DNA from: Morinoia aosen
Taxonomy: Eukaryota > Arthropoda > Malacostraca > Amphipoda > Talitridae
Direction: 5' to 3'
Assembly (NCBI GenBank): GCA_030386875.1
Contig: CM059559.1
Span: forward strand, 64,866,392-64,930,391
Length of the DNA stretch: 64,000 bases
Part shown: piece by piece, positions 7,223 through 60,812 of the stretch
Layout of the letters: every line of letters begins with the position of its first letter
Numbering within the stretch: position 1 is the stretch's first letter
Notes under the pieces: generated by a model
What the model was told of the DNA's origin: nothing
What the model saw: only the letters and a program-made list of their open reading frames with translations
Databases searched by the model: none
Position numbers and translations under genes: made by a program

Positions 7223-7245
7223 CTGGTGATTATAGGTTAGATTGT

Positions 7246-14919: not shown

Positions 14920-14947
14920 CTTTTGAAATATTTAACTTTAAAGTCAT
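14920..14947 (-). pseudogene. DUF4806-type gene, first coding exon (tentative)
   Basis: ATG at 14,947, nine codons (MTLKLNISK) and one base, then a strong donor G|GTAAGT. Joined to exon 2 this gives ISKDDSWKVVPTKWL, which fits the usual hydrophobic-strand start of these proteins. Its phase matches exon 2. The exon is short, so chance cannot be excluded. Confidence 0.45.
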
Positions 14948-16681: not shown

Positions 16682-17115
16682 TCACTGCAGCACACTACCT
16701 GCAGCACGCCACCTGCAGCACACCACCTGCAGTACTCCACATGCAGCGCACCACCTGCAGCTGACCACCTGCAGCTGACCACCTGCAACTGACCACCTGC
16801 AACTGACCACCTGCAACTGACCACCTGCAACTGACCACCTGCAACTGACCGCCTGCAGGCAGCTGACCACCTGTAGCACATCACCTGCAGCTGACCACCT
16901 GCAGCTGACCACCTGCAGCTGACCGCCTGCAGCTGACCGCCTGCAGCTGACCACCTGCAGCTGACCACCTGCAGCTGACCTCCTGCAGCTAACTACCTGC
17001 AGCAGACCACCAGCAGGACACCAACGGCAGCAAACTACTTACAGCACACCACCTGCAGCACACCACCTGCAGCACACTACCTGCAGCACGTCACTGCAGC
17101 ACCTCAAGTGCAGCA
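16682..17115 (+). repeat. 14-bp minisatellite, about 30 copies
   Basis: The unit GACCACCTGCAGCT (variants with AACT, GCCTGC or GCAGCAC) repeats with a 14-bp period. Because 3 x 14 bases is 14 codons, long spurious open frames arise on the minus strand. Each unit contains CTGCAG and many contain CAGCTG. Confidence 0.95.
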
Positions 17116-18950: not shown

Positions 18951-19718
18951 ATCACCTGAAATAAAAATATCATGTATCATGTATGACCAAACGCACCCTG
19001 CAGTAGCATCAGCAACTTCAGAAGTTACAAGAGAGCCCTAGCAACACCTCCCAAGCAGCGTCACTCGCGTAAGACGCTGAACACAGCCCGTTGAGCGCAG
19101 GACTACAGCTACGCCAGCGGAGGCAAGTTGAGGGTCGAAGGCGATACGGCGGCAACAACGCACCCACAGGAATTACTAGAGATCACAACACGGAGGAGTC
19201 TTAACAATCAAAAAAATATCATAACACCCAAATCTATATAATCAAAAAGAGAAACTTTCTCACCCAAGTTAGATTCTAAACTCAACGTGTCACTAAGCCA
19301 CGTTAAAAAAAGATGAAAACAGTGGTAGAAAGGCGCTCAGGCTGGGTCAACAAGGAAAGTAGGGAGATGTATTAACAGAGGATAAATTTGGCCCATTGGA
19401 TAATATTCCATTTTGAAGCCCAACTCTGGGAGAGATGATTGCAGTCTCTTCAAATTTTTAGTAGGTTTGCCGTTTACATGTATTTCATTCTAAAAACTTA
19501 GTAATAAACGATTCAATTTTAAACTGGCCCAATCATCCGCCAAGAAATTATATTGGCCATTAGTTATTATCTCAGTCATTTTATCGGTTTACGTACTTGC
19601 AACAAGCTGGAAACTTTTAAGGACTGAATAATAACCCAAAAATCAAAATAAATCAACTCACAGACTCAAGCACACTAAATTCCATGGCTGCAAATGCGAC
19701 TCCGCAAAGCAATAAACC
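18951..19718 (+). repeat. 768-bp tandem duplication, copy 1
   Basis: Begins ATCACCTGAAATAAAAATAT and is repeated directly at 19,719-20,486 with an offset of exactly 768 bp. I counted about four single-base differences. The unit includes a GC-rich block (about 19,020-19,190) without a recognised gene. Confidence 0.95.
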
Positions 19719-20486
19719 ATCACCTGAAATAAAAATATCATGTATCATGTATGACCAAACGCACCCTGCAGTAGCATCAGCAACTTCAGAAGTTACAAGA
19801 GAGCCCTAGCAACACCTCCCAAGCAGCGTCACTCGGGTAAGACGCTGAACACAGCCCGTTGAGCGCAGGACTACAGCTACGCCAGCGGAGGCAAGTTGAG
19901 GGTCGAAGGCGATACGGCGGCAACAACGCACCCACAGGAATTACTAGAGATCACAACACGGAGGAGTCTTAACAATCAAAAAAATATCATAACACCCAAA
20001 TCAATATAATCAAAAAGAGAAACTTTCTCACCCAAGTTAGATTCTACACTCAACGTGTCACTAAGCCACGTTAAAAAAAGATGAAAACAGTGGTAGAAAG
20101 GCGCTCAGGCTGGGTCAACAAGGAAAGTAGGGAGATGTATTAACAGAGGATAAATTTGGCCCATTGGATAATATTCCATTTTGAAGCCCAACTCTGGGAG
20201 AGATGATTGCAGTCTCTTCAAATTTTTAGTAGGTTTGCCGTTTACATGTATTTCATTCTAAAAACTTAGTAATAAACGATTCAATTTTAAACTGGCCAAA
20301 TCATCCGCCAAGAAATTATATTGGCCATTAGTTATTATCTCAGTCATTTTATCGGTTTACGTACTTGCAACAAGCTGGAAACTTTTAAGGACTGAATAAT
20401 AACCCAAAAATCAAAATAAATCAACTCACAGACTCAAGCACACTAAATTCCATGGCTGCAAATGCGACTCCGCAAAGCAATAAACC
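19719..20486 (+). repeat. 768-bp tandem duplication, copy 2
   Basis: Second copy of the unit starting at 18,951. Differences include CTCGGGTAAG for CTCGCGTAAG and ACTGGCCAAATC for ACTGGCCCAATC. Near identity means a recent duplication or an assembly artefact. Confidence 0.95.
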
Positions 20487-20627: not shown

Positions 20628-20965
20628 TAAGGGGAAACACCTGTGATATTTATGGGGATAAGTATTCACTAATGAAAGATGTGAATTCCTGAGCTGAATG
20701 TTAGCTCGGTCGGTGTTCTTTTCATTGAAATTAATTTTTTCATTTTATTTATACTCTCCTGATTTTCGGATTCACTGATGTCCTTTTTCAGCATTTATCA
20801 TTTTCTTCCCCCACTTTTAGCTTGTTTCATGAACTTCTCTCAATCATGTTGTTTCTATGCGAAGGATGAGGGACACACTTTGTGCAAAGATTCCTCGATC
20901 CTCAAGATTACACCAAATAGTGCATTCCTTCTTCTTTTCTTGAGAGCACCTTGCTATGGATGGAA
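20628..20965 (+). mobile_element. SINE-like repeat, copy 8 (diverged)
   Basis: Same block order as the family, in plus orientation: a TTAGCTCGG remnant, TTTCAGCATTTATCATTTTC, CTTGTTTCATGAACTTCT and AAATAGTGCATTCCTTCTTC. Confidence 0.65.
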
Positions 20966-23940: not shown

Positions 23941-23959
23941 CTCTATTTCACAATAAAAA

Positions 23960-24125
23960 ATTTTTTCTTGTTTCATGAACATCTTTCTTAGCTTACTGTT
24001 TCTATGCGCCTTGTGCAATGTGCATAGATTCCGTGTTACCTCAACTACATAATAAATGGTGCCTTCCTCCTTCTTCCCTTTAAACACCTTTGTCTTGGTA
24101 AAGGGATGCTAACACTTTCTTATAT
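23960..24125 (+). mobile_element. SINE-like repeat, copy 9 (3' half)
   Basis: Covers TTCTTGTTTCATGAACATC to the AAAGGGATGCTAACACTTTC tail followed by TTATATAAAC. 5' truncated. Confidence 0.7.
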
Positions 24126-24859
24126 AAACATAATGCTCCCATAGGATAAACTGAGCTCGCGTATCGTAGATACTTGCGAATCAGACTTCTGTCACGATTT
24201 TCAAATTCTCGTTAGCTTGTTTGCTCTTTGCTTTTTCACCTGACTTTTCATCTTTTTCATCGCAGAAATTTAGCATTCACTCATCTTATGGTGCGTTATA
24301 GCGTGAGTAGAGGTGTGAGTGGGGCCTTATGGTGCCCCTCACCCCTCTACAGCAAGGCACCACTCACTCCAAATACCTCTCACCCCTCTACAGCAAATAC
24401 ACTTTGTTTTCTGCATCTGAAATCGATGCATCAGTTACATTACTGATAAAAATTGAATTGTCCTGAGACGTAATTGTTGAGAAGGTATAATATCTTGCCT
24501 TACGATGATTACATTATCAATATATTGAAAAGTGAAATTTGATTGAGTTTATATTTATTTCCTTTCAATGGTATTTTATAATCACACATACATATACCAG
24601 GCTTCTCCTCCCTATGGGAGGGTAGCCGACAGCAGGCCACAATCATCACTCTTAGTCACTAGGAGGCGAGAGAGGCAGCACTGGCCGCACCAGAATTGCC
24701 AGGATCAGCAGCAGCCCAGCACAACAACCTTCCACAGTCACGTCCGACAGCCATAGCTGGTTTACCCCGACCGCTTCATTGAGTGCAGCCCCTCCCCCCG
24801 CACAGGACAGGTCAACCCCATCACACGCGTTCAGGTTTCCAGTACGGCGTCAAAAATAA

Positions 24860-26360
24860 AATTACCTTCTTATGCACTGCCCCCACTCACGTCTGTCCGC
24901 AGTCATCCCTCTCGCCACGTCCACAGTCAGACCCCTCTCATACAAAGCACGTTTCACCCCATCCATCCAACTCATCCGAAGTCTACCTCGCGCTCTAATA
25001 CCACTCACTTCCGGCATCTAAATCTTTTTCACCAGCAGCTCAACATTCGTTCTTTCAACATGCCCAAACCATCCAAGCACTCTTTCATCCACTCGCTGGC
25101 TCAACTTTTTGTTAACACCCGTCTGTCCTTTAACCAACTCATTCCTGATCCTATCTCTTCTTGTTACTCCATACATGCTCCTCAAACACTTCATCTCAAA
25201 CACATCCAACTTCCTCCTATCATCTGCTCTCAAACCCCAAGACTCTGCTCCATAAAACAAAACTGACACGATCAAGCTTTCATATAGTCCCCTCTTAGCA
25301 TTCATACTCAAACTCCTGTATTCAAAAACTTTCCTCAGTGCATTCAATGTCTTACAGCCTTCCCACACTCGATGCCTCACTTCTACTTCCATACTATCCT
25401 TATCAGCCACATCCGACCCGAGGTACCTAAAATGCTCTACCTCCTCTAACACTTCACCATTCATCCTCACACCCAAAGTTCCAAACACTCCACCTCTTGA
25501 ACATCTCATCACCTTACTTTTAATCACATTTACCCTCAATTTACGCCTTTCGCACGCTCTACCAAACTCTGCAACCAGTCTCCTCAGTTTTTCCTCTGAA
25601 TCAGCTACAAGCGCTGTATCATCTGCAAACAACAGCTGACACACTTCCCAATACATACCATTCTGTCCCACCAACTGCGCACCTTTTCTCAATACTCTGG
25701 CATTCACTTCTCTCACCATACCATCCATAAACAAATTAAACAACCACGGCGACATCACACATCCCTGTCTCACACCTGTCACAACTGAGAACCACTCACT
25801 CACCTCATTCCTTACTCTCACACATGCTCTGCTATCATTGTAGAAACTTTTTTCTAAAAAAAGGCATTCAGTCTAGCGCTAGTTTCGGCACTTCATCATC
25901 AATGAATGCTCTGAAAATACGATCAACAATATACATATAAAAAATTGATATTACAATAGTTGCTATAGATACAGATATTTTCAGAGCATTCATTGATAAT
26001 GAAGTGTCGTAACTATCGCTAGTCTGAATGCCCCTTTTTAGAAAAATGAATTTTATTCCGTTGTTTGTGGTTTTATTCTTGGTTTAATTTAGATTTCCAA
26101 GACATGTACCCATCTCAGAGTAGAAACTCTTGATCGCATTCAACAGTCTCCCACCCACCGCACACAAGCTTACAACTTGCCATAGAACCTCACAATCCTC
26201 TCTGTCATACGCTTTCTCTAGATCCATAAATGCCCTATATACATCTTTCCCTTTGCTAAGTATTTCTCATTTACCTGCCTCACAGCAAACATTTAATCCA
26301 CACAACCTCTACCACTTCTAAAACCACATTGTTCTTCAGCAAGCACAAGATCCGCAAGCA
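24860..26360 (-). pseudogene. LINE reverse transcriptase, interrupted
   Basis: The upstream part (26,360-26,129) reads CGFRSGRGCVD, an in-frame stop, then FMDLEKAYD, holding the first catalytic Asp block. The frame is cut by a nested insertion within an SFY-DS junction and resumes at 25,839 with VRQGCVMSPWLFN and LLFADDTALVADS, the catalytic FADD box. Then come the thumb and a conserved WFGHVER tail at about 25,060. A stop at 25,018 precedes a further conserved PEVSG...RMSWMDGV stretch at about 24,950-25,015. This RT class is widespread in arthropods; the clade cannot be fixed by eye. Confidence 0.85.
25849..26119. mobile_element. Foldback insertion nested in the LINE, 9-bp target duplication
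   Basis: GTAGAAACT flanks it at 25,840-25,848 and 26,120-26,128, exactly at the point where the LINE reading frame breaks. Two inverted arms (about 25,853-25,930 and 25,975-26,042) share GGCATTCAGTCTAGCGCTAG and CAATGAATGCTCTGAAAAT. About 75 bp of unrelated sequence lies between the right arm and the right junction. Confidence 0.8.
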
Positions 26361-43133: not shown

Positions 43134-43516
43134 ATCTTATTGAGTGTGTTAATTGTGAGTTTATTAGAGAGTTCTCAAATTCCTAATAATATATATCTCG
43201 AAAATGCAGAACTAAAATGCGTTGGAATTGAGGGCAGTCTGAGGCCCCATTATAATTGTCCATTCTGTGGTAAAGTATCTAAATCATTGGCAGGGTGTGT
43301 AAGCCATTTTGCATTCCATAAAAACTTATGCAATGTTGCATTTCCATGTTCATATGAAAAATGTCCTAGGAAATTTAAATCATATGCTGGATTCCGAGCG
43401 CATATTTTGTGGGAACATGGAAAAAAAGTTGTCAAATTGCATCAAAAACGAGCATCAAAGATCTCCAGATACTCTTCTGCAGTGTAATTTACAACATTGC
43501 AATCAAATTTGTCCCT
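43134..43516 (+). pseudogene. C2H2 zinc-finger/transposase-like gene, 5' part
   Basis: The frame up to 43,486 contains two C2H2 fingers: CPFCGK with HFAFH, then CSYEKCPRKF with HILWEH. A frameshift near 43,430-43,490 leads into CNLQHCNQICP, the start of a third finger, cut at 43,517 by the 10.6 kb insertion. The second half of that finger (LNALLQHLSDH) is at 54,127. This order of fingers heads a large family of repeated animal proteins with a GDNLGSH motif that behave like transposase genes. The start codon is not determined. Confidence 0.75.
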
Positions 43517-43794
43517 ACACTCAGAGAAATCTTGACACACCTGGATGTGTCATCATGACACACTTAAGTGTGTCACCATGACAATCCTTCAAGTTGGTCG
43601 AGAACGTAGACTAGCTTCCACCGATGGAACGTTGCCAAGGTTGCCGTTGCTGAGTGTTTCTTCTCTAATCAATGTCAATTAATCTTTTTAACGGCCACAT
43701 TGAGTTCAAATGTTGTAATTATTGAATTTATGCTTATTTTATGAAAGTTTTACTTCTTCCAACTTAGAATTGTGTAAACGGAAGAATTTTAAAC

Positions 43795-44154
43795 CCCCTC
43801 ATAGGTACAGCTGTTGTATCTATGAGAATCAAGGCTCCCGGGGGGATCTGTGAGGTCCCGAGCAAATGGTTAGATAGGCCTTCTTTCAGTTGAAATAAGG
43901 TAATTTTTATTTGGTTGCGAGTCATTTTTTTCGGTTACTACTGAGCGGTTTTTCAGTACCCACAACTGTCCTCTTCACTCGTTATCTGGTTTAATGAATT
44001 TCCTTCTCAACTTCCCATTTCCATAAGACTCGTGTATAGATTTGGCATCCCTTCAAGTCCATACTCATTAATGCATTCCTCTTTCCTCTCTTTGGAACGC
44101 CTGTATTGCGGTTAAGGAGGCTTAAAAACATAATTCAATCTACTCTAATCTAAT
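43795..44154 (+). mobile_element. SINE-like repeat, copy 10
   Basis: Full-length, diverged copy with the head GGTACAGCTGTTGTATCTAT and a CTAATCTAAT tail. It lies directly before the 12-bp minisatellite. Confidence 0.75.
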
Positions 44155-44159
44155 TTTGT

Positions 44160-44935
44160 CTGATTATCCCCGTTCCGGTCTCTGGTCCGGTCTCTGGTCA
44201 GGTCTCTGGTCCGGTCTCTGGTCCGGTCTCTGGTCCGGTCTCTGGTCAGGTCTCTGGTCAGGTCTCTGGTCAGGTCTCTGGTCAGGTCTCTGGTCCGGTC
44301 TCTGGTCCGGTCTCTGGTCCGGTCTCTGGTCAGGTCTCTGGTCAGGTCTCTGGTCAGGTCTCTGGTCAGGTCTCTGGTACGGTCTCTGGTCAGGTCTCTG
44401 GTCAGGTCTCTGGTCAGGTCTCTGGTCAGGTCTCTGGTTAGGTCTCTGCTCAGGTCTCTGGTCAGGTCTCTGGTCGGGCTTCTGGTCATGTCTCTGGTTA
44501 GGTCTCTGGTCCGGTCTCTGGTCAGGTTTCTGGTCGGGTCTCTGGTCGGACTTCTGGTCATGTCTCTGGTCATGTCTCTGGTTAGTTCTCTAGTCCGGTC
44601 TCTGGCCAGGTCTCTGGTCGGGTCTCTGGTCGGGTCTCCGGTCGGGCTTCTGGTCGGGTCTCTGGTCGGGTCTCTGGTCAGGTCTCTGGTCAGGTCTCTG
44701 GTCAGGTTTCTGGTCAGGTCTCTGGTCAGGTCTCTGGTCGGGTTTCTGGTCGGCCTTCTGGTCGGGCTTCTGGTCAGGTTTCTGGTCAGGTCTCTGGTCG
44801 GGTCTCTGGTCAGGTCTCTGATCGGGTCTCTGGTCAGGTCTCTGATCGGGTCTCTGGTCAGGTCTCTGGTCGGGTCTCTGGTCAGGTCTCTGGTCGGGTC
44901 TCTGGTCAGGTCTTTGGTCTGGATTGGTCACGTCT
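44160..44935 (+). repeat. 12-bp minisatellite, about 63 copies
   Basis: The unit GGTCTCTGGTCA varies mainly at one position (TCA, TCC, TCG) and more rarely in CTTCTGGTC. Because the period is a multiple of three, several frames on both strands stay open (GLWS, SLVR, TRDL and PDQR repeats); these are not genes. The left part mixes CA and CC variants, the right part CA and CG, so the array grew by block amplification. Confidence 0.95.
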
Positions 44936-45559
44936 AATATGTTCTGAGCACAGAATATTGAAGAATCATTAATTTTTCTGTCTATTTAACGTTATCTTTT
45001 GTTCGTCCTGAATTATGAAACCTTAATTTTCGTAATATATGCTACAAAAATGAACACTATTTTCAGATGATAGCCTAATTTTCTAATTAGCACAGAACCT
45101 AGTCGATGGAAGATGATAAAAAATAGCTACCAATCATAAGAAAATATGTTATAAAAATTAATCATTCGTTCGGAAAAATTGATCAATCGCCCTTTCGATT
45201 AAATTAAAGTTGACGTACAATGTACTACAATTCTTCCATTCAGTTGGTCATCAAACTTATCGTTATGCACAGATAGAAAGCTCATAATATGCTGGTTGGT
45301 GCTCAAGGAAAAGGTATTCCATCACTATTGAGATTAAGTTGATTGCATGATTTAGTCCTCTGATTCCTCGTGGAATGCATATATGGCTTATGACGATTCT
45401 CTTCTTTTAGTCGTTTAAATTTGTAAGATATGTATTTATCTTATATTTTGTTTTTATTCATAGAAGGAGCATTCTTTTAACATGTCTTATTTTAATGCTT
45501 TTAATTGCTAATAGTCTTGTATATATTTTTATTTCGCAAAAAAATTGGTGCATCTGTTG

Positions 45560-45901
45560 GAGGGAGTGTATGACAGTTTGGAAACATTTTATTTTCAAGC
45601 ACTAGATGGCAGCCGACTAAATTTTTGGTTTCCATGCCTAGTGATAGCTTCAGTGGGATTTATATGCGCTGATTAGACTGATTTCAATAGGCTGGTGCCT
45701 TCGAAAAAACAGTCGGTTAAAGAAGTTTGAGGATTCGATGAATTACTCATTCAATGGTGCTTTGTGTCGTACGTCAGACATGAGCCCAACCCAACATCTG
45801 CCAGTCACAGACTACTGCGAAAATTATTAAGAGTGCCTCGGCTGCCGCCCGGAATACCTCAGTCTCATTTGTTCTGAAAAACAGTTAGTGCCTTTCACGG
45901 T
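45560..45901 (+). promoter_or_regulatory. GC-richer block with a possible donor, candidate 5' region
   Basis: This block has balanced composition in AT-rich surroundings and ends at GTG|GTACGT (45,902). GCACTAGATGGCAG at 45,599-45,612 matches most of the CTCF consensus. It may be a promoter or first exon of the unit with exons at 48.2-50.1 kb. Weak. Confidence 0.2.
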
Positions 45902-48240
45902 GGTACGTGTGCTTCTTGTGTGTGATAATTGCTTGTTCATAATTGTTAAAGAAAGGAAATTTAATTAGGCTTAGGAAGCATGCGTTTTTATGGTGTTAAA
46001 TGTGGCTAGAGCCAGTTTGTGTGTAGAACTGCAAAACCGTTCGAGGTTGAGAAGTGAGAATGGAATGTCAACTAGAGCACAAATATGTGACTGAAGCTAA
46101 CATGAGATTTGGAAGTGATGAACAATGTTCTATCGAATAATTCTTCAAAGAATTCTACTTAGGAATTTGTTACTTTTTGCGCTAGAATATTGTTACTGGA
46201 TATATTTAAAATGTTATGTGGCTGTTTGTTAGTGACAGTTTGGATTGTGGTAGATGATTGATAAAATATATTCCAAACACAATTTAGCTTTGAGCAAACA
46301 TTTATATTGTTCATCATGAAATGATTCTATTAAAATTTAAAATTTTTATCATATTTTATCAAATATTTTTCCCTCTTGAGTGCAAAATAGTTTACATTAT
46401 TCTGACAGAAATGAAATTTGGTAATTTAGATACCTATATGTATTCTTTGAAACATTATGGATGAAGCTAAATATTGCGTACTATAGCTGTTTACAACATA
46501 ATCTCAGCATTTCATAATTGATGCATGTAGGTTTCAGCATAGTTTATGTATAATTTCCACTGATCCTTGAAGAAAAAAGTGTAACTGGTTAAATGTCTGG
46601 TTTTATTAGCAAGATTCCATACTCAACTTAGTAAAAATGTAAGGATATGCTTCTGATTCATTATCAACAATGGTAATTTGTAGCACATACAAATTAAAAA
46701 CTTGAGCATTGTGATTTTGCCAAACACAAATGGCTAACTAAATGAAACTGTGCTAGTAGTTTTGCACTATCAATTAATGGAAAGTATTTTTTTTTATACA
46801 ACTTTTTCTCTTGTTCTACCACTGGCCTTCTATAACACGTGAACTTTATCATCCTCTAATTTGACTTTGTCAAAGTGGTACCTTAAATCTAAGTTTTTTT
46901 TAACTTTGATTGTTGGAAAAAATAAATACTTTCTGAATAACATATGTCATTTTTCTAAAATTCGATATGTGGTTAATATGATTACTTTATTTTGTTTCCA
47001 TGTCATCTGATATTTTCAAACCAGTTCTAGAATCCATCATAGATTGCCTATAATATCTCTCAAGCTGTTGTTGATTTAATGGGAAGGGTGGGTCATAAGA
47101 CTTATTTTAAAGCCTTTTGCTAGATCATTTAATATGACTACAATACTTAAGTTGCTGACGATTTCAAATGTTTCAATGTTACAATATTGGTAATTATTTT
47201 TGTTTTTTACTTCCAGAATTGTTGAAGCCTTGGTATACTTGCACACCAAATATGATCTGATTTTCTGCAGGGTTGCTATAAAGATATTTTGTTAATATCA
47301 TTATGCTCCTGAAATTTTTGTGTCTTGCACAAAGTGAGTATGCTTTTAATGTGATATGCATAAATCTGCTTGAGATTCATGTTAAAAAGAAGTGGTCTAC
47401 ACTTTCTGTACCAAGAAAACCCTTTCAGCACATGGTGTGTATATTACCTGTTTTATGGGCATGTTAAAATGATTATATCACAATCAAGTGCTGTTCTGAA
47501 AATAGTTAAAGCACTTAATGAAATAAATAAATTGAAAGTTATCTAATTACTTTGCCATTTCAGTATTTCTGTGTTGTTTTTCATAATTACCAGTATTAAT
47601 ATCCCTTTTTGCTGGGAATAATTTGGTTGTATTTGTTTTTTTTTAATCAATTTTGGAAACATTGCAATGGATTAGTATGTGACCATGTGTGCTTTTCAAA
47701 CGAATATCTTTATGTTCACAAATTTCATAAACAAATATGGATTTTGTATCAACTTCGTAGAAATGAATTTATTTTTCCAATTTTCCAGTAACAAACTAAA
47801 ATTATTTTATTGCTGTATTTCCTTTCATAACATACTGGGATATTTTAGGAAACTTTCATTTTTAATTCTGTCCTAATCAAGAACACTAACAAAACAAAAA
47901 TATTATATCACTATCTTTTTTCATAGCACATACAGAGATAATTTGGGAAGCCTTCATTTTTAATTCTTCCCTAATCAAGAACATTAGCAATTGAAAATTG
48001 TTAACAATTTTTAATTCATTCATGTCCATGTATTCTCATTCTCCTCCACTTTGTAGGAGTTTTGGAAAATCAGGCTGACTACCTAGGCTCATTCTTTCAT
48101 TAATACTGAAAACAAAAAGGGTGGATGGTGATAAGCAACCCACTTAGCACATTGCTAACTAAACAAAAAAGGCAAACAAGCAGAATTATTAGTGTTTTTA
48201 ATATGTTATCCACATTCTCACCTCTTTTTTGTTTGTTCAG

Positions 48241-48439
48241 GTACCGTTACAAGTGATCATCTGTGACAGCCTTATTTACTGCCAACTGCGTCTGTGTCAC
48301 TGGCATGTTGGGAAGAGGTCTGCATCATTGAGGGACATCAGTCATGATGGTCTGGCTAATTTGCTTTTGCTGCTTGTCAACCTTTTCTGCGAGGAGCAAC
48401 GCTTGGTTTGAAATATTTCAAGGAACTCTTTTCAGGAAG
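48241..48439 (+). CDS. Candidate exon between strong splice sites
   Basis: Acceptor CTCTTTTTTGTTTGTTCAG and donor GGAAG|GTAAGG. An ATG at 48,344 opens 32 codons to the donor, beginning MMVWLICFCCLSTFSA, which has the look of a signal peptide. An overlapping frame is closed. A SINE is inserted 18 bp after the exon end. The family is not recognised. Confidence 0.3.
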
Positions 48440-48457
48440 GTAAGGAACCTCTAGGTG

Positions 48458-48789
48458 TATCTATGGGAATTAGCGCTCCCAGGGGGACTATGTGAGGGCC
48501 TTAGCTAAAGGTTAGGTAAGCTTCCTTTTGTTGAAATATAATAGGTTTCTGTTTTGTTACGGACCATCTTTTTTCGGTTCACTGCTGTCCTGTTTTTCAG
48601 CACCTACTACTTTCTTCTTCTACTTTTTCTTGTTTTATGAACTTCTTTCTTAGCTTCTTGTTTCTGTACACCTTGTGCATAGATTCCGCGTTCCCTAAAC
48701 TCCATACTAAATGGTGCATTCCTCCTTCCTCTCTTAGAACATCTTTGTCGTGCAATTGAGGGAGGCTAAAACTTTCTTATATAATAATA
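48458..48789 (+). mobile_element. SINE-like repeat, copy 11, with 16-bp target duplication
   Basis: Perfect flanks AAGGAACCTCTAGGTG at 48,442-48,457 and 48,790-48,805. About 20 bp are missing from the 5' end. The tail is TATATAATAATA. This is among the youngest copies. Confidence 0.9.
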
Positions 48790-48875
48790 AAGGAACCTCT
48801 AGGTGCTTCACAAATGTTGTTTGAATATTCAGACATCTTACTGGTGCTGATTGGTTCATTTTTATCCTTTGTAGC

Positions 48876-48984
48876 ACAAAAATGGTAGACTTGTTGTTAA
48901 ATAGTAGAATTCAGCAAACATGAACGAAGCCGCTGCTGAAAGGGCAGCTAGGATGTTTCTCCACATTCATTCTGCAGTTAAATG
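48876..48984 (+). CDS. Candidate exon with ATG at 48,921
   Basis: Acceptor TTTTATCCTTTGTAG and donor AAAT|GTGAGT. ATG with an acceptable context (CAAACATGA) starts MNEAAAERAARMFLHIHSAVK and leaves one base over. This phase joins the exon at 49,788 in a frame that stays open to 50,062. Confidence 0.35.
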
Positions 48985-49027
48985 TGAGTTCATCCTGTTT
49001 TGCCTCAATTGAACAGATGTTTCACAA

Positions 49028-49358
49028 TTGGTGAGGTCGCCAACTAAAGCTTAGGAAGTCTTCGTACAAATGAATTAGGACTTTTGTATGGTTGAGGAAC
49101 ATCGTTTCTCGGTATACTGTTGATGTGTTTAATTGTTACTCATTGCTATTTTCTTCCACTCTTAGTTGGTTTCTAAAGCTTCTTTCAATATAAGTGGTTT
49201 TAATGAAATTAATATCTTGTTATCATGAAGCCCTTTTCAATATTATTATTGTATGGTTTTCATGCACAAGTTGTTGGGACACTTCATGTGCACAGATTCC
49301 CCGTTCCCTTCATTTCATTTTGAACAGCACCTTCTTTCATAATTGTTGAAACTTTGTT
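49028..49358 (+). mobile_element. SINE-like repeat, copy 12 (diverged, with insert)
   Basis: Block order is preserved (CTAAAGCTTAGGAAG, GGTATACTG, CACAGATTCCCCGTTCCC, GAACAGCACCTTCTTTC), with about 80 extra bases in the middle. Confidence 0.6.
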
Positions 49359-49787
49359 TTAGTTTGAGAGGTTCAGATCAACTTGCATCCAAATTCATAT
49401 AATATTTTGTTATGTGCAGAGCAGAGTATAAAATATACAGTGGACTGATGAAGCTCGATAATTTTTGAAAATTCATCTTCACTTGAGGCCAGGAAATTAT
49501 TCGTAGCCTTATCACACATGGCCGAGTAAATTAGCAATATTTGGTACTTGATGGTTGTTTTAGATTACACATTATGGATTCAAGTTTGAGTAAAATAATT
49601 AGTGAATCTATGCAGGGTTTTTAACGGCGTTTAAGAGTATTTTTAAACTCAACCCTGGTTACATTGCTACGCAGTTCAGTAGGCACCTTTAATGAATAGA
49701 TTCTTCACAAAACCACTGCTCAATAAAACTTGCCTAGGTGTGAGCGCATTATATTTCAGAATGAAAACCTTATCTCATTTGTTTCAG

Positions 49788-50062
49788 CACAACACCCATG
49801 TCAGGGCGCTCAGTGGTCTCAACCTGTAGTTCCGACAACCTCGGCAGTTGTCGTCCTCATCCTACCTCGTCTCAGTCTGTTTTGGATACTCGCCCCAACA
49901 GTTCGTTCGACTTGCAAGTTACAGCCAAGTTCTCCAACATACTGTTTCTATACACAGAGGATATATTGTGGCGACACCTCTTTACAGTGCATTGAACCGC
50001 GTTCTCGCTTAACGCGTTTCCTACGAAGAACCCACCGGTGGTCACTCAAGGGATTTTCATAA
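49788..50062 (+). CDS. Candidate terminal exon
   Basis: Acceptor CATTTGTTTCAG at 49,787. Spliced to 48,984 it stays open for 90 codons to TAA at 50,060-50,062, giving a predicted product of about 112 residues. A second frame from ATG 49,798 (65 codons, SGRSVVSTCSSDNLGS) also looks coding by composition, so the true frame is unclear. GC content is higher than in the flanks. Confidence 0.3.
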
Positions 50063-50499
50063 TGCTGCAGACCAACCTCCGGTCACTCACTTAATTTTTA
50101 TAAATAGTTAATAGTAGCTAAAAACCAGTAAGATCGAGTTAATGATTGATATTTTCAATGTTTGTTACTGCAATTGACTTAAAATTTGCATTGAATAGTG
50201 AACTGCAGTTTAACTCGGAGCAGAGTACGTGTTGAACGAATATATAATTTTTTTAATGGTAGCCAAGAACTTCTAGTGTGATTGCCTATAGCGATTATTG
50301 TATTCATGTATATGAAAATGGAATTATTCCTTGATAAGAGTGGGTTATTTAATGCGGATTTGACAACTTGATGAGAAATAATGCGTATGGATAAATTGAT
50401 GTGGAAATTTTTTTCAGTATCAAATAGAATGAATATTTTTATTAGTGTGGTAGACTTGTTTAACTTTGCAAAGTTTCGGTTTCCTTTTTTTTTGCTCAA

Positions 50500-53400
50500 A
50501 TGTGTGAAACAAATTTCATTGCATTTGTTTGCAAGTTTCTAGATTTACATAGAGACGTCCAAACTGGTGATAAACAGCTTTAGTTTTTACTTCTGGTAGT
50601 TCCTTTGCTACCTGATAAGAATATGAGTCCTCTCAGGGGGATGCAGCTATTGTATCTATGGGAATTAGCGCTCCCAGGAGGACAATGTGAGGGCCGAGCT
50701 AAAGGTTAATTAAGTAGGCTTTTTTGTTGTTGAAATAGAATAGGTTTTGGTTTTGTTGCGGACCATTCTTTTCGGTTCACTGTTGTGCTGTTTTTTTCAG
50801 TCCCTACTACTTTCTTCTTCAACTTTGATCTTGTTTCATGAACTTCTTTCTCATCTTACTGTTTCTGTGCCTTTTCTGCATAGATTCCGCGTTCCCTTTA
50901 CTCCATACTAAATGGTGCCTTCTTCCTTCCTCTCTTTGGATCGCATTTGTTGCTGCGGGTAGGGAGGCTAAAACTAACGACTAATCTAATCTGCTAAGAA
51001 TATGAGTTCTAAAAACAAAAATATGTGCTATATTTCTATGCATAAATCAATTTTTATTTGTGTGCTGCTACTGAATATAAAATCAGAACATGTAGGATAA
51101 AATCGTGAATTTTTTTGCGTTTTCGAAATGAAATTGAGTTTTTTCAAGATATAATAACCACCGTGTTATTTCTATGCGGAATATAAGTGATACTTTTACA
51201 GCTAATGTAATTATTTCAGACCTTGGTGGACGTGGTCGTGCCTGTTTTTGATAAGTTCACAATTTTGTCCATAAACTGGAACAAAACTTTCTTAGTTTCA
51301 CATGTGAATGGGGATTCTAATTTTTACAACTATTGAATTTGGATAAACTAATTAAATATTATAAATTATGTGAAAGTATTTGAAATTTGATTAATTTAAA
51401 TGCCGTCGATTGAGTCGAGAATGAAATTTTGATTGGTTTCTTTCCTGGAATATCAGATGTTTTAAAACCATTAAGATAGAGGTGTTATTAACATGAACTT
51501 CTTTAGTGCTGAGTTTTGTACTTATTTAGTACTGAACTTTGTTTTGTTAATTTCACAATCAATTTATTACCATAACAAAACTTTCCAAGGAGACTTAAAC
51601 TTATTCATTAGATCCTCGTAAATTTATTATTGATGCAAGTTTATATGCAAGTCAGAGTATCTTCACCGATCGACCTCGCTATCGTTACCAAAGGCGGTCA
51701 ACACATCACGAATGACGGCCTTATGACTCAGTGAAACCAATGAACATCGTTAAAAGCGACGTTATGGAATTCCAGTTTTGCATGGAAATTTTTTTATTTT
51801 ATATAATTCAAAAGGAACACGATTGCTTTCATTTTTTGTTCACATGAAATTTGAGATTCCAAGTTCTAAATACAAGCTTCAATGTTTTCACTGTATCAAA
51901 ACGTAAATTCTTCCTTGAGGTATTGTTAACTTAGCAAGAATATGAGCTCAGTATGAAACTAAAAGTGATTATTAAAATTATTTTCGTTTGTTTGAACATT
52001 TCTGACTTATAGAAATATGCATGCAAATAATAAGTAATTTTATTTTCCATTTAATTTCTATATATGAATATGTTATTAATTAACTTAGTTGCTTGAGCTG
52101 TGATCTGAGTCACAAACGTACAAACCTTTCAGTACACTACTTTAAAATGAATATTGCTGAAAATTTCTTCGAGTGCAAATGAAACTCTCACATTGTATGT
52201 GCGTAGTAGTATGTAAATGAAAATTTCATTTTTCAGATTACAAGTGTTAAAAAATTATTCCACAGTTTCAGAATAGAGAGAATGTTTCCAAGCGTTGTAT
52301 GAGACCTTAACTTTACGTAAAATAGAAGTAAGATACTATTTCTTCTGTTCTAATATTTTTTGATTTTTGTAGAAAATTAGGTACAGTTGTTTAATAAATT
52401 CAAGTCACTAGAATTATCTGATTTTATAGCGTCCATTGCCTTGAACTGCAATTAGTAATATATAATGTTCTATTTGTCATACATAAAAATAGTGTTATTA
52501 AGCTGTATTGCCATTGTAATTTAATTAGAATTCTTACCTGCGATAATTATGGTAGAATTCTTTTGGCTGATACAACTCCAGAAAATATTTTGTTTATTCT
52601 AAAGTAAGACTTTCTCTAACTTTGTGAGAACTCGTTATTTATGACCTCAAAAATGATGAATAAAATATTTCCATTTATTCGAAAGTTCCTGGATTTATTT
52701 GTGAACGTTCAAACAGTCCTTGCAATATTTTATTCTTCACCTTCAATTTGTTACTTGTGTTAAAGTGAAAAACTAAATAAGCATTTTTAGGTTATTTCTT
52801 GAATTAAAATGAAATCTTTCTGTATACAGATAAACCAGGATTTCATTTGTGCGAGATAAGTGTGAAAATTTATTTTCTTTCTCCAAATGAAATTATTTTC
52901 GTCACAGTGAAAGACATGCTTAATTTTACGAGAAATTGATTATGAAACTTAACGCAGAACTAAATTATTTTCGTCCGTTTGAGTATTTCTAGACTTACAT
53001 GGAAATGTGCATACAGTTGTAAATATTTTTTTTATAAATGAATTTTTTTATTTTATTCGTGTGAAAAATGAGATTTAAAATTTCTAAGGTATTGTGATAA
53101 ACTAGAATTTCATTTGTGCGTGATAACAGGTGTTGGAATTTTTTGTTTCAAAATGGAGAATTCTTGTGCTGAAGCGTGAGAACTTTACTTTCTAAGTTAA
53201 ATGGAACTGAAAGGGGAAAATAAGATTGATTCTGATTGTAAGAATATTTCTTGATTATACGGAAATGTGCTCACAAACGTAGAATAATTTTGATCACTTC
53301 CAGTTCTAAGTAGATAAACATTCAGTGCTGAATTTTTTTCCACGTTTTTTATTGCTTTGAATCCAACTATAAATTTTCCGAGAATGAAAATGCAGGGAAA

Positions 53401-53850
53401 ATGTGTCATTTCAGTGTTGAATAAAATGAGCAAACTAAACTGATGCTGTTTTTATTTGAACAGATGAATGTAAGATGTGGTTATGCTGAAGCCTATGTTT
53501 AATTCGTGGAAAATTGTTAGTTATCTAAAACGCAATTTAGCTTGAAATCAGTGCTTTCTTCTTTTGATAAACGTTAAGGCATTGAAACCGTCACAATTAA
53601 TCGAATTCATGTGTCATGTTAAAATACATTTAACGCTGTTGTGAGGAAGATCTTGTAGACGCTCTTAATTTATTCACAGATTTCAATTAATCTGTTCATT
53701 TCTGCATAAATTCTTGAAGTTTCTCTACACGACGGCATGAATTATTTTATATGTTTTTTGTAAAATTGCAGAATACGCTGATTTTAGAAGTAGTGCATTT
53801 TTCCTGTTGAAATATTGTGATAATTTAAAATTTAATGGTCAATGTGGTAC
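50500..53850 (+). repeat. Ancient divergent tandem blocks
   Basis: Similar sub-motifs recur through this AT-rich stretch: GAATTTCATTTGTGCG with GATAAACTAG near 52,830 and 53,100; TTTGAGTATTTCTAGACTTACATGG-like blocks near 50,540, 51,990, 52,980 and 53,240; GAAATGTGCATACA-like blocks after them. Unit length appears to be several hundred bases with strong divergence. Confidence 0.35.
50629..50994 (+). mobile_element. SINE-like repeat, copy 13, full length with 13-bp target duplication
   Basis: Perfect flanks TAAGAATATGAGT at 50,616-50,628 and 50,995-51,007. The 366-bp body runs from CCTCTCAGGGGGATGCAGC through ATTAGCGCTCCCAGGAGGAC, CTAAAGGTTAATTAAGTAGG, TTTTCGGTTCACTGTTGTGC, CTTGTTTCATGAACTTC and GGTGCCTTCTTCCTTCC to GGGAGGCTAAAACTAACGAC, then a CTAATCTAAT tail. 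Long variable target duplications, simple-repeat tails and no coding frame fit a SINE. TTCGGTTCACTGTTG could be a weak pol III B box; no clear A box was found, so a tRNA origin is not shown. Confidence 0.9.
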
Positions 53851-54123
53851 AAAATAAGCCTCGAATGATTCATTGATTCTGCAAATATATACTCATTTTT
53901 TCTAAATCCAGAGGCAAGACAGAGGGGTATGGTAGGAGTAAGTTAAATCTATGTTTTAGGTTCCGTAGATTTCCCCTAAGTGTGTCATGACTGCCCCAAG
54001 TGTGTCATGTAACACACTAAAGTGTGTCATGGCACCTCCATGACACACAATTGTGTGCCGGTTTTGCGAAAAACGTATGACACACTTAAGTGTGTCAAAA
54101 TGACCCTATATTTTTTCTCAGTG

Positions 54124-55682
54124 TAGTTGAATGCTTTGCTCCAACACCTGAGTGATCATATTAAAAATGGGAAAATCATTAGGTGCCCTATGAAAGGCTG
54201 TGATAAATTATTTTCAAAAATTTCTAGCTATATAAGTCATCGTAGAAGAAACCATCGTGGATGTTCTCATAATCAGGCTGCTTTAAAGCATATAATATCA
54301 CCCAGTGTACATGAAGGCAGTGTTGATATTCATTCAGTAGCACTTTCAGCTCATGAAGGTTGCTCCGGTGTATCTGATGCTAGTGATAAACCTGACACTA
54401 GAGAGATAGATGAGAGAATAGAAAATAGTGATGAAAATTTAGGTGAAAATGATGTAAAAGCCTTTTATTTGAAAAATCTTGCACTGTTTTATCTCAAATT
54501 CCAGGCAAAATTACTACTTCCATCATCTACCATCCAGCATATCATTGAAGAATTTCATGGAATTCACCAACAAGAACAGACATTTTTGTACCCAAAAGGA
54601 ATCATAAAATTGAAAAATGAAACTGACATTCCTGATGACAAGTTAAAAGAAATTGAAGAATTATTTACCAATGCAGATCTGTTTCAATGTACATCAGAAA
54701 GTTTTAAAACTGACTCAAAACGGAAAAAAAACGTTTAAAGAATTATTCAACTATGTTCAACCAATTGAAATTAATTTAGGAAATAATGTTCAGTGTAAAA
54801 AACGTACTTTTCAATATATTCCTGTGTGTAGAAGCCCAGAAAGCTCAGGGAATAATAAATCTGTCCAAGATGAATTAGCTTCTTCCATGGTATGTAACTT
54901 GCCTAATGTGGATGACATTCCAGAGTGTATGAGTGACGTGTGTGATGGTAGAGTGTTTAGGGCAAATCCTTTATTAAGGCATGATCCTAATTCTCTTAAA
55001 CTCATTCTCTATCAGGACGCCTTTGAGGTTTGCAATCTGCTTGGCTCAAGTAAAAAGAAGCACAAAGTACGGGTTGTTTACCAAACTCTTGGTAATATCA
55101 GGCCGCATTTAAGATCTAATGCTGGTCATACCATTTTGGTTTTGCAATGCACAGAAAAATATTTCAACTATTTTGGCTGGGAGGTATTTGTGAATATTTG
55201 ATTAAAGACCTACAAGATATAGAAAAAATGGAATTTAATTTGGCAAAAATAGGATCAGAGGCACTTTGTGCTGTGTTACTGGAGATAACCTTGGCTCTCA
55301 TTGTGTTGGATGATTTACAGAAAACTTCAGTACAGTTGAGTACTTCTGTAGGTATTGCTTGGTTCGAAAACAAGATTTTAAACCAAATCCATTAACTATT
55401 GGACAATTTAGAACAGCTGTAAGCCACAAATTAGTCATTGTTGGGCTTTCAAATGGAGTGAACAATATCAGAGGTGTTAAATTTAATTCTGTATTTAAGA
55501 CATGGGTTAACTCCATGTCTTGGTCATGACCTATTAGAGGGTATTGTAAACTATGACTGTGCTCTTTTCATAAAAGATTTGGGCCAAGTGAAGAAATGGT
55601 TGACTTATGATGAATTAAATACATTAATAGTAACCTTTAAATACCTTGGCGCAGATGCTAGTTATAAGCCCAGTGAAGTAAA
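54124..55682 (+). pseudogene. C2H2 zinc-finger/transposase-like gene, middle part
   Basis: Resumes with LNALLQHLSDH, a further finger CPMKGCDKLF with HRRRNH, an acidic linker and a helical region. A frameshift in the A-run at about 54,724-54,731 leads to the FKELFNYVQP frame. Conserved blocks follow: FRANPLLRHDP, LILYQDAFEV, LGNIRPHLRSN, then after another shift GDNLGSHCVG (stop at the next codon) and FCRYCLVRKQDF, then PCLGHDLLEGIV and KKWLTYDELN. The GDN and CRYC blocks are diagnostic of the family. Resemblance of GDNLGSH...C-x2-C to Tnp2-type CACTA transposases is an inference. The gene is cut at 55,682 by a CACTA insertion. Confidence 0.8.
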
Positions 55683-56995
55683 CACTATAGACCGACCGGG
55701 GCCCCGGCCGCGCTCGTGTCAAAAGCTTGCCTCTGCCCCCCTTCTATCATGATTACCTGTGCTGCATGCCAGATACCGCAAGATCTTGCATACACCTGCG
55801 ATGCATGCCAGATACCGCCAATAACTACCGTATTGTGTACTCTTTTTTCCCTTATACTGTACATTTTATATAAAAAGTGTTAACAATAGTCGGATATTAG
55901 GAAACACGTCTGGCATTTCAGAAATCTCACCAGCAGCCTCTGAAATTTTGGCCACGAGATCTTCCTTACATTTCCGTTGAAAACGTTTTTGCTGAAACCT
56001 TTTAATCGAACGTCACTAAAAGGAAATTTCATCTTAGTACACCCTCGTACATTAGAAGTGCTTATAACGTAATTTCAAACTAACTATTGGGAGTAATTGT
56101 ATCGTAAAATGTCATACTTTAAAACAATTAACTGCTAATATCTCGAAAACCGAAAAGTGTTCCGAAAATTTCATAGAAAAAATTGTTCATCTGGCCATAT
56201 TCTGCTGGTGAAATTGTGTACCTCTTGTCGTAAAACATCCTGCACAAACTAGCATTATCTCCGTACAGTTAGCCAGCAGGTTGTAATTATATTAACTTGA
56301 TATATCTGAACACGTCAGTGGTTTGCTTTAATCGCAACCTTATCAGAAACTTAAAAACGAAGGAAATTCCGAAGAAATTTATTATCTTCACTATGAAAAC
56401 GTTTCGGAGTCCAATTCCATCATCAGTTCAAACGAAAAACAAAAGAATTACGTCTGAGATTCCGAAACGTTTGCCATTAAAAGACTGTTCCCTTTTATAT
56501 TGGTTCTTCTTTTCATTTTACGTATTAGAATTCCCAAAAATGGCCCTTTTAATTCTAATAAATTATTCGAAAAGGAAACAAGATTTACCACATTGTGAAA
56601 AAAAGACAATTCAAAAATGTTAATTTAAAGTGGAGATAGAATCAATTAAAAAGTCGGAGACATTTGTGTGGAACACTCGGTACATTTAATTACTATAATT
56701 GTTTCTGTATTAATTAATTCAAAAAGCACTGCAACTGCAAGTCTACAAACTTTATTGACTTAACATAAATATACACCCAACCGCAACCGTAATTCAACAT
56801 GCATTGAGCCACTAACCGGCGTTATGCAATACATCGTCGTGATACGTCCTGACACGGTCTGAACCCCGGCCCCGGCCCCGGCCGTGGTAAATTTGATAAC
56901 CCCGGCCCCGGCCCGGCCCCGGCCATGACAAATTTGTTGACCCCGGCCCCGGCCCCGGCCCCGGCCAAATTTTCAACCCCGGTCGGTCTATAGTG
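55683..56995. mobile_element. CACTA transposon, non-autonomous, 1.3 kb
   Basis: Perfect 19-bp ends CACTATAGACCGACCGGGG (55,683-55,701 and inverse 56,977-56,995), bordered by AA on both sides. The right end has CCCCGG/GGCCCC-rich tandem subterminal repeats (56,863-56,975), interrupted by AAATTTG-like spacers. No transposase frame: the open frame 56,297-56,623 is not recognised. Inserted in the zinc-finger gene between its DASYKPSEV and AAENSCLLRLLP blocks. Confidence 0.9.
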
Positions 56996-57245
56996 AACAC
57001 ACCTGGAGAGCAGTTAGGAGGGCAAGCTGCTGAAAACTCGTGCTTACTTAGGTTGCTGCCGCTCATACTACGCAACAAAATTATGAATTCAGAACATCTA
57101 CTTGGTGCTACTTTCTAATTTTATGGGATATTGTTGAGTTAATATGTGCTCCAAAGATAAATAAAAGTGATGTTGCTTACTTGAATACTTTAATTGAAGA
57201 CTATCTTGAACTAAGAAAAAGTAATTTCCTTCAAATGATTTGAAG
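56996..57245 (+). pseudogene. C2H2 zinc-finger/transposase-like gene, 3' part
   Basis: After the CACTA element the homologous frame resumes as GGQAAENSCLLRLLPLILR, then with two frameshifts NFMGYC..., a CAPKINKSDVAYLN block and LIEDYLELRKSNF. These correspond to the conserved segment following the KKWLTYDELN region in the family. No similarity is recognised beyond about 57,245, so the end of the gene is lost. Confidence 0.7.
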
Positions 57246-57344
57246 CCCATGTGGAGAATCCACACAAATAGGTTCAATGGTAAACAGGGAATGACCGCAA
57301 AAAAGTTTATTGAACGCTGCAAGTAGCAGTAAATTTAGATGATG

Positions 57345-58755
57345 CGAACCATTAATAGGTCGAACATCAGGATCGTAGGTTCACGAGCCAGGAACAAGAA
57401 TTAATCAACTAGGTCAAATCTTGAGACTAATGCCTGCTCGGCGTTTAAGATTACAAAACTACATTAACTCTAATTAACAACAACAAAATTCAGGAACGAA
57501 AGGATCTAGGGTTAACCTAGATAAATGAAAGAAAGGCGATCCCTATAAATTAACAAAAATGGCGACTTCTAGCATGGTGGCTAAAAACGCAGCAGCACTG
57601 TTTCCTCTACGAAGGCGCGAAACCTTGCATTCTTCAGCGGCGATCCTAATCAGCTTGCGGCGTGGCCCTCCAGAGGACTGGCCGTTCGCCCAGCTGGCAA
57701 AATTCAAGCCGCACGGCCCCGAGAATCCCCAGTAGTTTAACGCAGCTCAGTAGGCCGATAATCAGCCAGGGTAGCCAGCACCGCACAACTAAAATGACAG
57801 CCTCCTCTGAGATCGCAGCGTAGAATTAAAACCAGCTGTCCCGCAACGTTCCCGGTAGAGCAGCCTCAAGCTGGGCTTTTGGAGCCCGAAGACGCAGATA
57901 CTAGAAAAATGAAACAAATGAATTAGTGCAATGAAGAAGTCAATGGAGTAAGAAGTTATTCATAATGATTTTGCAGCACACAGGAACATTATAGCAGGAC
58001 TATTTCATATGCTAACCTGAGTTTAATTATGCCTCAGTGTGGAAGCCACTCGTAGAGTTAGAAAGATGGTAAACGTGAAGAAAAAGGCTCAAGCTAAGAG
58101 CAAAGTTAGGGAATAGAATTAGGTTTAAGAGTCAATAGCACTACCCGGAGAGTTAGACAGCTGGTAAGCCGTCTTTCAGTTAGGCTCCAGGTAGGATAAT
58201 TTAAGTTAAGGAAAAAGGTTAAGGGCCCATTCCAAGCAAGCTCGAAATAGATTTAGGTTACATTTAAGATATCATAGTATTAAGATATCGAAGATATTAA
58301 GGTTTAAGGATTTAATAAATCAAGAAATTTAAGGTAGCTTTAACAAGATCACGCACACTCACAGTCATACAATTAACAAAGGCAAGGTTATCTATCAGAG
58401 CAATAGGACAAAGGTGATTAATTCATAAGAAATAGAAGCAAAGATGGCTTTAGGAAATAGAGAGAATAAGTGAAGAAGCGATCCACCGGGACACGCGCTT
58501 GAGGACGTGCCACGGCTGAACACCGAGCGTCGGCACCCACGACTGCGGAACGCCTTTACTCTCGGGATTGATAAAAAAACCGCTGAGATCGTGACTAAAG
58601 GTCACCACCATAGCTAGGAAGTCGCAACTTAAATAAAGGAACAAAAAAGCAAGAGATACCAAACGGGTACCACTGCAACAAAAGGGATCAACCCAAAGTA
58701 TCAACAGGCAGAAATGAAGCTGTCTGACTCGCCGTAAAGCAGCTCCCACCTCACC
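57345..58755. other. Unclassified GC-richer block
   Basis: It begins where the zinc-finger gene ends and stops where CACTGTAAA begins at 58,756. The part 57,590-57,880 is strongly CpG-rich. The minus-strand frame 58,450-58,749 is hydrophobic in the middle but has no recognised family. A retroelement untranslated region is possible. Confidence 0.3.
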
Positions 58756-59170
58756 TCACTGTAAAAAAAACTGCAAAAAACAGACAAAAACAGACGAATT
58801 ATCTGTTAAAATGACACAAACTTTTACTTCTAGTCCGTTTTCTGAATATTATCTGTTAAATCAACAAATTCATCCGTAATTCGTTTCGATACCGGACAAT
58901 TTTTCTAATTTCCGTTGTTTTCACGGGTCAATTAAAAATTACGTGAGTAAATTGAATTCTTCGTTGTTGTAACGGAATCTTGAAAGTTGTCCGTTGTTCC
59001 AACGGCTCTTCTTTACATTAGGAGTAGTTTTCACAGACAAACTGAATATTGCAGATTCGACTGACTCCTCAGGGGATTATACAGAATTCGATTAAATTCC
59101 CATTGTTTCAATGGTCCGTAACAGTAAAAAGATGATCAAATATCTGTCACAATTGCTGTTAATGTTGCAG
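58756..59170. mobile_element. Possible end of a CACTGTAAA-type DNA transposon
   Basis: Starts CACTGTAAAAAAAACTG. Within 400 bp, CCGTTGTTxxAACGG-like inverted motifs occur near 58,913, 58,961 and 58,996, and ATCTGTTAAA occurs twice. This resembles a terminal and subterminal region. No opposite end found. Confidence 0.4.
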
Positions 59171-59624
59171 TATGTCTTGTATTACTCTGTCGTCGTTTTA
59201 CTTTTTGTTCAACCAACACATTAAAGATTTGCGTTTGCCAAGTATGAGATATAAAATTTATAATTCTGGCGGAACATCTGCATTTAAAAAATTAATAATA
59301 CTCTCAGAATATTATATATAGTATTAGCGCTGCGTAAAGAGTTTCAAGTTGCAAATACATCAATTTGCCAACTAGAAATATATGATGGCCATGACAGAAA
59401 GCGAAACGTTAATAAAAGGCCTGTGAAAATTTATTCAGAAAATGTGTCCATTCTCTCTCATATAACATACAGACAACGCAGCGTAAAGATGGTATACAAG
59501 TTGACGTATTCTGCACCAGAATTGGATAGCCCGTATATAAGTTGGCAAATAACCGTACTTAAACGTGTATATTTTCATTCTCTATGGATGTGAGGAACAT
59601 AATGCAATTAGGGGCTTGTGCGTT

Positions 59625-59705
59625 TATACGTACATACATATATTGTCTATTCACTTGTGTGTATATATACGTAAGTACATACGCGTAAACATACATACGA
59701 ATAAG
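59625..59705. repeat. TACATACG/TATATACG simple repeat
   Basis: Alternating ACATAC, TATATA and ACGTA units without a strict period. Confidence 0.5.
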
Positions 59706-60812
59706 TGAAAAATACTATAAAAGTGTTCATTGAGATCAATATGAATTTTCAAGTAAGCCTGTGTCAGGGAGGAAGTTCATTTTTTTATTCACACATGAAC
59801 TGTGCTCTGTGAAAAGAAAAACAGGATAACATGCAGCGTTTTTATCCCATTTTTAAACTTATTCAAACACTACACAGTCTAATAATGCATGGCATACAGT
59901 AATGGCATCACATACTGTATTATCGAACAAGTTAATGCGGTATTTAAATTTACGCAAATAAAAGTTACAAAGTTGAAAAAGTTAAATGAAGCACGAGCCG
60001 TTTTCATAGCCTAATATATACATAAATAAGTTATGCTAATAATTTGTAAGTGATCAACGGACAAATTCGATCACACGACTTTATTTACACTCAACGCTAA
60101 TATAACTTATAGCAGGGGTACTAAAACTTTTCTGCTGTGACTGAAACTGGAACAGGTAGTGACTGGAACCGCCCTCGCCCATACTTGATTAGTTCATTTG
60201 GTGCTTCACTGAAATAATATTTTCTTTGAGAAACTTTGGTTTCTCGTGAACAATATACCAAATAATATAGAGCCACGTTATATAGTTTTAATATAGAGCA
60301 CACTTGTTGACCTCATTTATTATAGATTTTTAAATTTCTCTACTTCTTCGGAAAAGAATAAAAGGATAAAGAAAAATGAAGCTGTTTATTAAATGAAAGA
60401 CACGCTGTCGTTGCCGTATTGAATTTATTAGTGGTAATAAATTCCACTATAAACTAATTGTTTTAAATGTGAAAATGAATGTTAGAAAATGTTTATCAAC
60501 CTTATTTGAGTCGTTTATGCTCTCTAAAACGCTAGAAATATCTTCAATTCATGTCCTGTCATGCGTCGAGTTGAATATATTTTCAACAATAGAAAGGACT
60601 CGTTACTCGTGTCCACTTTCGAACGTCTGTCGCAAACTAGTCCCTGTTCCTGGGCCCGGAGTGAAATTCATCGTAGTGGAATTCAGGACAGTGGAGGGCA
60701 TATAATCCATAACCTAAGTGTATATTACATTTTTATATCATTGATACTAAATTTCAAAGGAATTGAACGTTCAGCTGGTTAAAAACCATATAATAGAAGA
60801 TCGTGAGCGATG

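Follow-up and report, generated by a model that had tools for sequence, protein, structure and literature searches.

Terminal inverted repeat (TIR) DNA transposons with captured interiors exist, as exemplified by the animal Pack-TIRs and by Tgm-Express1 of soybean (PMC8277862, PMC1947982; statements on published systems follow excerpts of the papers cited throughout). The excerpted survey counts 370 Pack-TIRs in 55 of 100 animal genomes and gives none for its insects (PMC8277862), and Tgm-Express1 is a CACTA element of ~5.7 kb with five captured gene fragments, which were identified and occur in spliced transcripts (PMC1947982). Here we analyzed a 64,000-nt stretch of the Morinoia aosen genome (hereafter the window), in which the region 43518-54123 probably represents a single large DNA transposon of the non-autonomous kind, which has short, imperfect inverted repeats at its ends (CACTSAGARAAA) and subterminal clusters of TGACACAC, and which lies within a decayed zinc-finger coding sequence. 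It would belong to a known kind, the large non-autonomous TIR elements, being possibly CACTA/Mirage-like (CMC) and possibly a carrier of captured host sequence. Like the animal Pack-TIRs, it has TIR ends around internal sequence that is a candidate for non-transposon origin, although the parental copy of the capture was identified there and not here (PMC8277862). With Tgm-Express1 it would share a CACTA-type structure enclosing exon-looking segments; however, Tgm-Express1 is a plant element whose fragments are identified and transcribed, whereas the segments described here are known from sequence alone (PMC1947982).

Transposases of the CMC/CMCT (CACTA-Mirage-Chapaev) group are marked by a DDE motif together with C(2)C, H(3-4)H. 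In the CMCT clade the termini are CA..TG in most cases, with duplications of 2-5 bp, and the duplication is TA in the ESTA lineage (PMC12730594); the fungal CMC element CNIRT6 has CACTG ends (PMC12810828), and one animal CACTA family has 2-bp duplications (PMC4298943). The CACT...AGTG ends with TA found at our locus agree with these termini and duplication lengths. The likeness to ESTA lies in the CA..TG ends and TA duplications, but ESTA is classed by its transposase and described from fungi, whereas the element here has no recognisable one (PMC12730594). Plant CACTA elements show a 3-bp target duplication and closely spaced direct and inverted subterminal repeats (PMC8978399); the latter arrangement is seen here in TGACACAC, which is present in both orientations at each end.

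Ends and target site

The element, its ends and its target comprise the following features, in window coordinates:

43134..43515, + strand: target, decayed coding sequence of C2H2 zinc fingers, 5′ part, with its frame changing between ~43420 and 43486
43516..43517: TA, left target-site duplication
43518-54123: whole candidate element, 10,606 bp
43518..43529, + strand: left TIR, CACTCAGAGAAA, 10 of 12 bases shared with the right end
43533..43583, + strand: left subterminal repeats, a pair of palindrome-like TGACACAC units spaced 23 bp, the exact palindrome being one of them
53978..54104, + strand: right subterminal repeats, including the exact palindrome at 54078-54097
54112..54123, - strand: right TIR, CACTGAGAAAAA as read on the - strand
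54124..54125: TA, right target-site duplication
54126..55700 (end approximate), + strand: target, remainder (3′ part) of that decayed coding sequence, with its frame changing near 54735 and again further on

The inverse CACT...AGTG ends with TA on both sides, which the original prediction had noted, were found as described, the right end reading TTTTTCTCAGTG on the forward strand. The pattern TACACT[CG]AG has a single match on each strand of the 64-kb window, and these two matches coincide exactly with the element ends. The common 20-bp palindrome reported near both ends, TGACACACTTAAGTGTGTCA, is perfect at 43556-43575 and at 54078-54097, at distances of 38 bp (left) and 26 bp (right) from the element ends, and these two sites are the sole exact 20-bp palindromes in the window. 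Allowing up to three mismatches added one further site (54010-54029), compared with 0 matches in 100 shuffles. The half motif TGACACAC has 10 sites in the window, counting both strands, nine of which lie within ~150 bp of the element ends.

Neither the palindrome nor the end pattern matched anything in viral_contigs, and a literature search returned no paper pairing CACTGAGA with "terminal inverted repeat" and none with ACACTTAAGTGT. In genome_contigs, TGACACACTTAAGTGTGTCA was found at two sites of one contig (WQYT01000091.1, from a Coriobacteriia metagenome-assembled genome), where it is contained in the contig's own 64-67 bp palindromic repeat (1376-1442 and 4956-5022). We rejected this contig as a relative of the element and take the match as a coincidence, since it is GC-rich and bacterial-looking and shares merely 20-21 bases with the window.

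As had been proposed, the zinc-finger coding sequence stops at one end and resumes at the other. When the flanks were joined with a single TA, giving TGTCCCTAGTTGAATGC as the predicted empty site once the 10.6 kb are removed, one frame read CNLQHCNQICP*LNALLQHLSDH, in which the canonical finger spacing C-x4-C-x12-H-x3-H is restored in frame. Among net join offsets from -30 to +30, a finger pattern that permitted a stop was found only at 0 (the single TA) and at -12; both contain a stop, and the latter takes in element bases. The fingers of the flanks were seen by Pfam below its cut-offs alone (best E 7e-5). In animals, multi-finger genes of this kind commonly occur as transposon-like repeats. 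A search for relatives of the zinc-finger protein covered viral_contigs only, in which 8 and 3 stretches fitted a pattern and none was confirmed.

The ends, the TA on both sides, the palindromes, the subterminal motifs, and the finger spacing and frame restored on joining thus give good support to a single 10.6 kb insertion with TA duplication, as originally suggested. Movement would most likely have been by cut and paste, with a transposase supplied from elsewhere in the genome (mobilization in trans, as we infer) binding the subterminal motifs and ends, and the element would have been joined into a TA dinucleotide within a zinc-finger gene copy, duplicating the TA. Copies resembling short interspersed nuclear elements (SINEs) are nested inside it, two of them with target duplications of their own.

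Coding content and alternative explanations

Consistent with the expectation that transposase motifs would be missing, Pfam named no family at E up to 1 when 44920-54123 was translated in all six frames with X in place of stops. As a control for this method, 8 frames taken from the flanks and from 24-27 kb were scanned, in which RVT_1 was found at E 7.7e-19. Open stretches of 50 aa or more number 38 in the interior, 11 of which were also searched singly in Pfam; matches of interior open reading frames (ORFs) to Herpes_U34 (E 0.049) and DUF3181 (E 0.074) were far below the cut-off and were taken as chance. Over the whole window, neither Rfam (gathering threshold) nor a tRNA search found anything. 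The earlier interpretation therefore stands with respect to the element being non-autonomous, as far as Pfam and ORF length show, but neither of its two branches, captured host sequence or a small element inflated by insertions, was proved. A CACTA/Mirage-like kind of enzyme is our tentative choice.

Several points weigh against this interpretation, whether they concern the insertion itself, its lack of a transposase or its class. The looser end pattern TACACTnAG...CTnAGTGTA, with a span of up to 20 kb, forms two pairs in the window (43516-54125 and 43516-60722) and arises fairly often by chance, at 0.235 pairs per shuffle and with at least one pair in 32 of 200 shuffles, which is why the case is built jointly on the ends, palindromes, subterminal motif and reading frame. 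The element is known from a single copy, the one in this window. The codon at the join is TAG, which means that the target copy was dead before the insertion or mutated afterwards, and the frame changes elsewhere in the target would fit a dead gene copy. The six-frame Pfam scan started downstream of 43518-44919, and Pfam was not sharp, as the control fingers were seen only below cut-offs (E 0.024 to 0.16, including 0.073). It also gave no significant family for a 489-aa ORF at 4739-6205 (- strand), which by eye we take to be hAT-transposase-like, or for ORFs at 21.7-22.4 and 33.3-33.7 kb, by eye presumably transposon-like. Because Pfam is silent on such ORFs elsewhere in the window, its silence on the element is weaker evidence than it seems. 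The flanks share TA only, not the 3-bp duplication of plant-type CACTA elements, and TA is the target duplication of Tc1/mariner as well. In view of this and with no recognisable transposase to decide, any superfamily assignment would be tentative, with Tc1/mariner a serious competitor. The empty Pfam search carries no information on the class of a non-autonomous element, since such a member of the CMC/CMCT group would itself have no transposase.

That the same non-autonomous insertion is of Tc1/mariner rather than CACTA/Mirage type seems somewhat unlikely. While its TA duplication would suit Tc1/mariner, and TcMariner accounts for 115 of the 370 animal Pack-TIRs in the excerpted survey (PMC8277862), the clustered direct and inverted subterminal repeats resemble CACTA anatomy (PMC8978399), although this is a resemblance and not a test. 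It is also unlikely, and more clearly so, that the element is autonomous, with a transposase made unrecognisable by decay or split among exons foreign to Pfam. The old degenerate sequence and nested insertions that it carries, and the failure of Pfam to name the other transposon-like ORFs, would be in keeping with this reading, but the six-frame search was empty even with stops read through as X, and no ORF is longer than expected by chance.

Alternatively, the two ends may be separate short elements of one family (miniature inverted-repeat transposable elements, MITEs) flanking ordinary host DNA. A CTGAGTG at 43650-43656 could indeed bound a 139-bp left element, CACTCAG...CTGAGTG; however, this candidate has TA on its left but TT on its right, the right end has no nearby partner (the only other + strand CACT[CG]AG of the window is at 6342), and the zinc-finger spacing is restored over the whole 10.6 kb with one TA, all of which makes two separate elements quite improbable. 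We give still less credence, and very little, to the 10.6 kb being an intron of the zinc-finger gene. Its right end, TTTTTTCTCAG/TGTAG, resembles a 3′ splice site, yet the exact finger spacing is kept by joining at the TA and not at a GT donor, the left end has no good donor by eye, and frameshifts break the gene on both sides.

A mosaic interior

The interior of the element is a patchwork, made up of the following features:

43797..44151 (approximate), + strand: SINE-like copy 1, 68-77% to other window copies, no clear target duplication
44177..44919: 12-bp minisatellite, ~62 copies, 743 bp
44920..46100: segment with ordinary CpG, observed/expected ratio (o/e) 1.06 and 0.73 in its two parts, promoter-like by eye only
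46100..49787: CpG-depleted block holding exon-like segments, o/e 0.18 to 0.48 by segment
48241..48439, + strand: putative exon-like segment 1, TTCAG before and AAG/GTAAGG after
48458..48789, + strand: SINE-like copy 2, its 5′ end shorter than that of copy 3
48915..48983, + strand: putative exon-like segment 2, donor AAT/GTGAGT
49788..50062, + strand: putative exon-like segment 3, in which a 111-aa ORF ends
50408..53346: repeat array, old and degenerate, with 5 or more copies of a ~230-bp unit
50408-50586, 51880-52108, 52616-52784, 52867-53098 and 53140-53295: units of this array
50632..50995, + strand: SINE-like copy 3

SINE-like copy 2 is flanked by a 16-bp duplication, AAGGAACCTCTAGGTG (48442-48457 and 48790-48805), and copy 3 by a 15-bp duplication, AAGAATATGAGTYCT, starting at 50617 and at 50996 with 14 of 15 bases alike. 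Later insertions had been suggested to account for the size of the element. Such insertions are present, but the three SINE-like copies (~1.05 kb) and the minisatellite together come to ~1.8 kb and explain only ~17% of its length. Related SINE-like stretches lie at ~7.2-7.6, 8.1-8.4, 9.0-9.3, 13.4-14.0, 20.8-20.95 and 23.96-24.13 kb of the window, on the - strand at 7-14 kb and on the + strand at 20-24 kb; these further copies or parts fall within 7233-9304, 13422-13979, 20763-20952 and 23958-24133. The SINE pattern had 0 matches in viral_contigs and none in phages.

When 50996-53900 was compared with itself, 8 matches were obtained, where shuffled sequence averaged 2.15 (maximum 6 in 40 shuffles), and the best match scored 47.3 bits against a shuffle maximum of 33.7. 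With 51880-52110 and 52867-53100 as seeds, a profile picked up another three copies (E 3e-7 to 2e-5), each lying in the 50.4-53.3 kb interval; these E-values are to be taken loosely, owing to the AT-rich sequence and large profile bias corrections. Outside the element, the profile and two extensions of it gave no E below 0.1, with single listings at 0.22, 0.39 and 0.84. We read the array as old, degenerate and, within the window, peculiar to the element.

CpG content changes abruptly along the interior, with o/e values of 0.18 at 46100-48240, 0.40 at 48241-48443 and 0.45 at 48793-49787, followed by 0.98 at 49788-50113, 0.76 at 50114-50630 and 0.97 at 50996-53900. Such depletion is a trace of germline cytosine methylation. 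Among 3.3-kb stretches of the window, the one lowest in CpG starts at 46201 (0.277), with that from 8901 (0.294) a close second. Low values also occur in the minisatellite (0.41), over 54124-55700 in the target gene (0.30) and over 53900-54123 at the right end (0.41), and a second CpG-depleted block occupies 9000-15000 of the window (o/e 0.27-0.42 per kb). When 44-54 kb is divided into five two-kb steps, all of them have a T-rich + strand and four also a G-rich one; the preceding step, 42-44 kb, is skewed likewise. Around 45600-45630 lies GCACTAGATGGCAGC, which we take to resemble a CTCF-type site.

Spliced-looking segments had been noted at 48.2-50.1 kb. CAG precedes all three exon-like segments, and donors follow segments 1 and 2 at 48440 and 48984. 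When splice-like sites were called by simple rules in 45400-50200, however, none of the five + strand acceptors belonged to these segments, and one sits in a SINE. The + strand had 3 donors, those at 48440 and 48984 among them, and 5 acceptors, and the - strand 0 donors and 1 acceptor, compared with shuffle means of 1.28 donors (maximum 4) and 0.84 acceptors (maximum 5), so that the sites favor the + strand yet fall inside the shuffle range. We rejected the length of the 111-aa ORF as evidence for an exon, as an ORF of at least this length arose in 42 of 100 shuffles when the interior was shuffled and in 50 of 500 when its own surroundings were.

The CpG break and some + strand splice-like sites would suit the capture of a transcription unit read from the + strand but do not prove it; a host transcription unit is possibly the source of part of the interior at 45-50 kb. 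A more elaborate version, which we consider doubtful, is that a CACTA/Mirage-like animal element captured a whole promoter-to-last-exon unit (~45.4-50.1 kb), the CpG-depleted block being the methylation footprint of its gene body, beginning right after the promoter-like segment, and the right half being an element-specific array amplified inside. If the interior is captured host sequence, the element would exemplify, in an animal and at a large size, how a DNA transposon can capture a gene, and the locus of origin would be reflected to some extent in the CpG footprint; if not, it would simply join the large non-autonomous elements that have patchwork interiors.

Other features of the window

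A reverse transcriptase fragment lies on the - strand at 25021-25872 of the window (RVT_1, E 2e-18). Two direct repeats of 300 bp, 99% identical and 768 bp apart (18951-19250 and 19719-20018), probably reflect a recent duplication, and 16685-17087 is a minisatellite with a 14-bp unit in ~28 copies.

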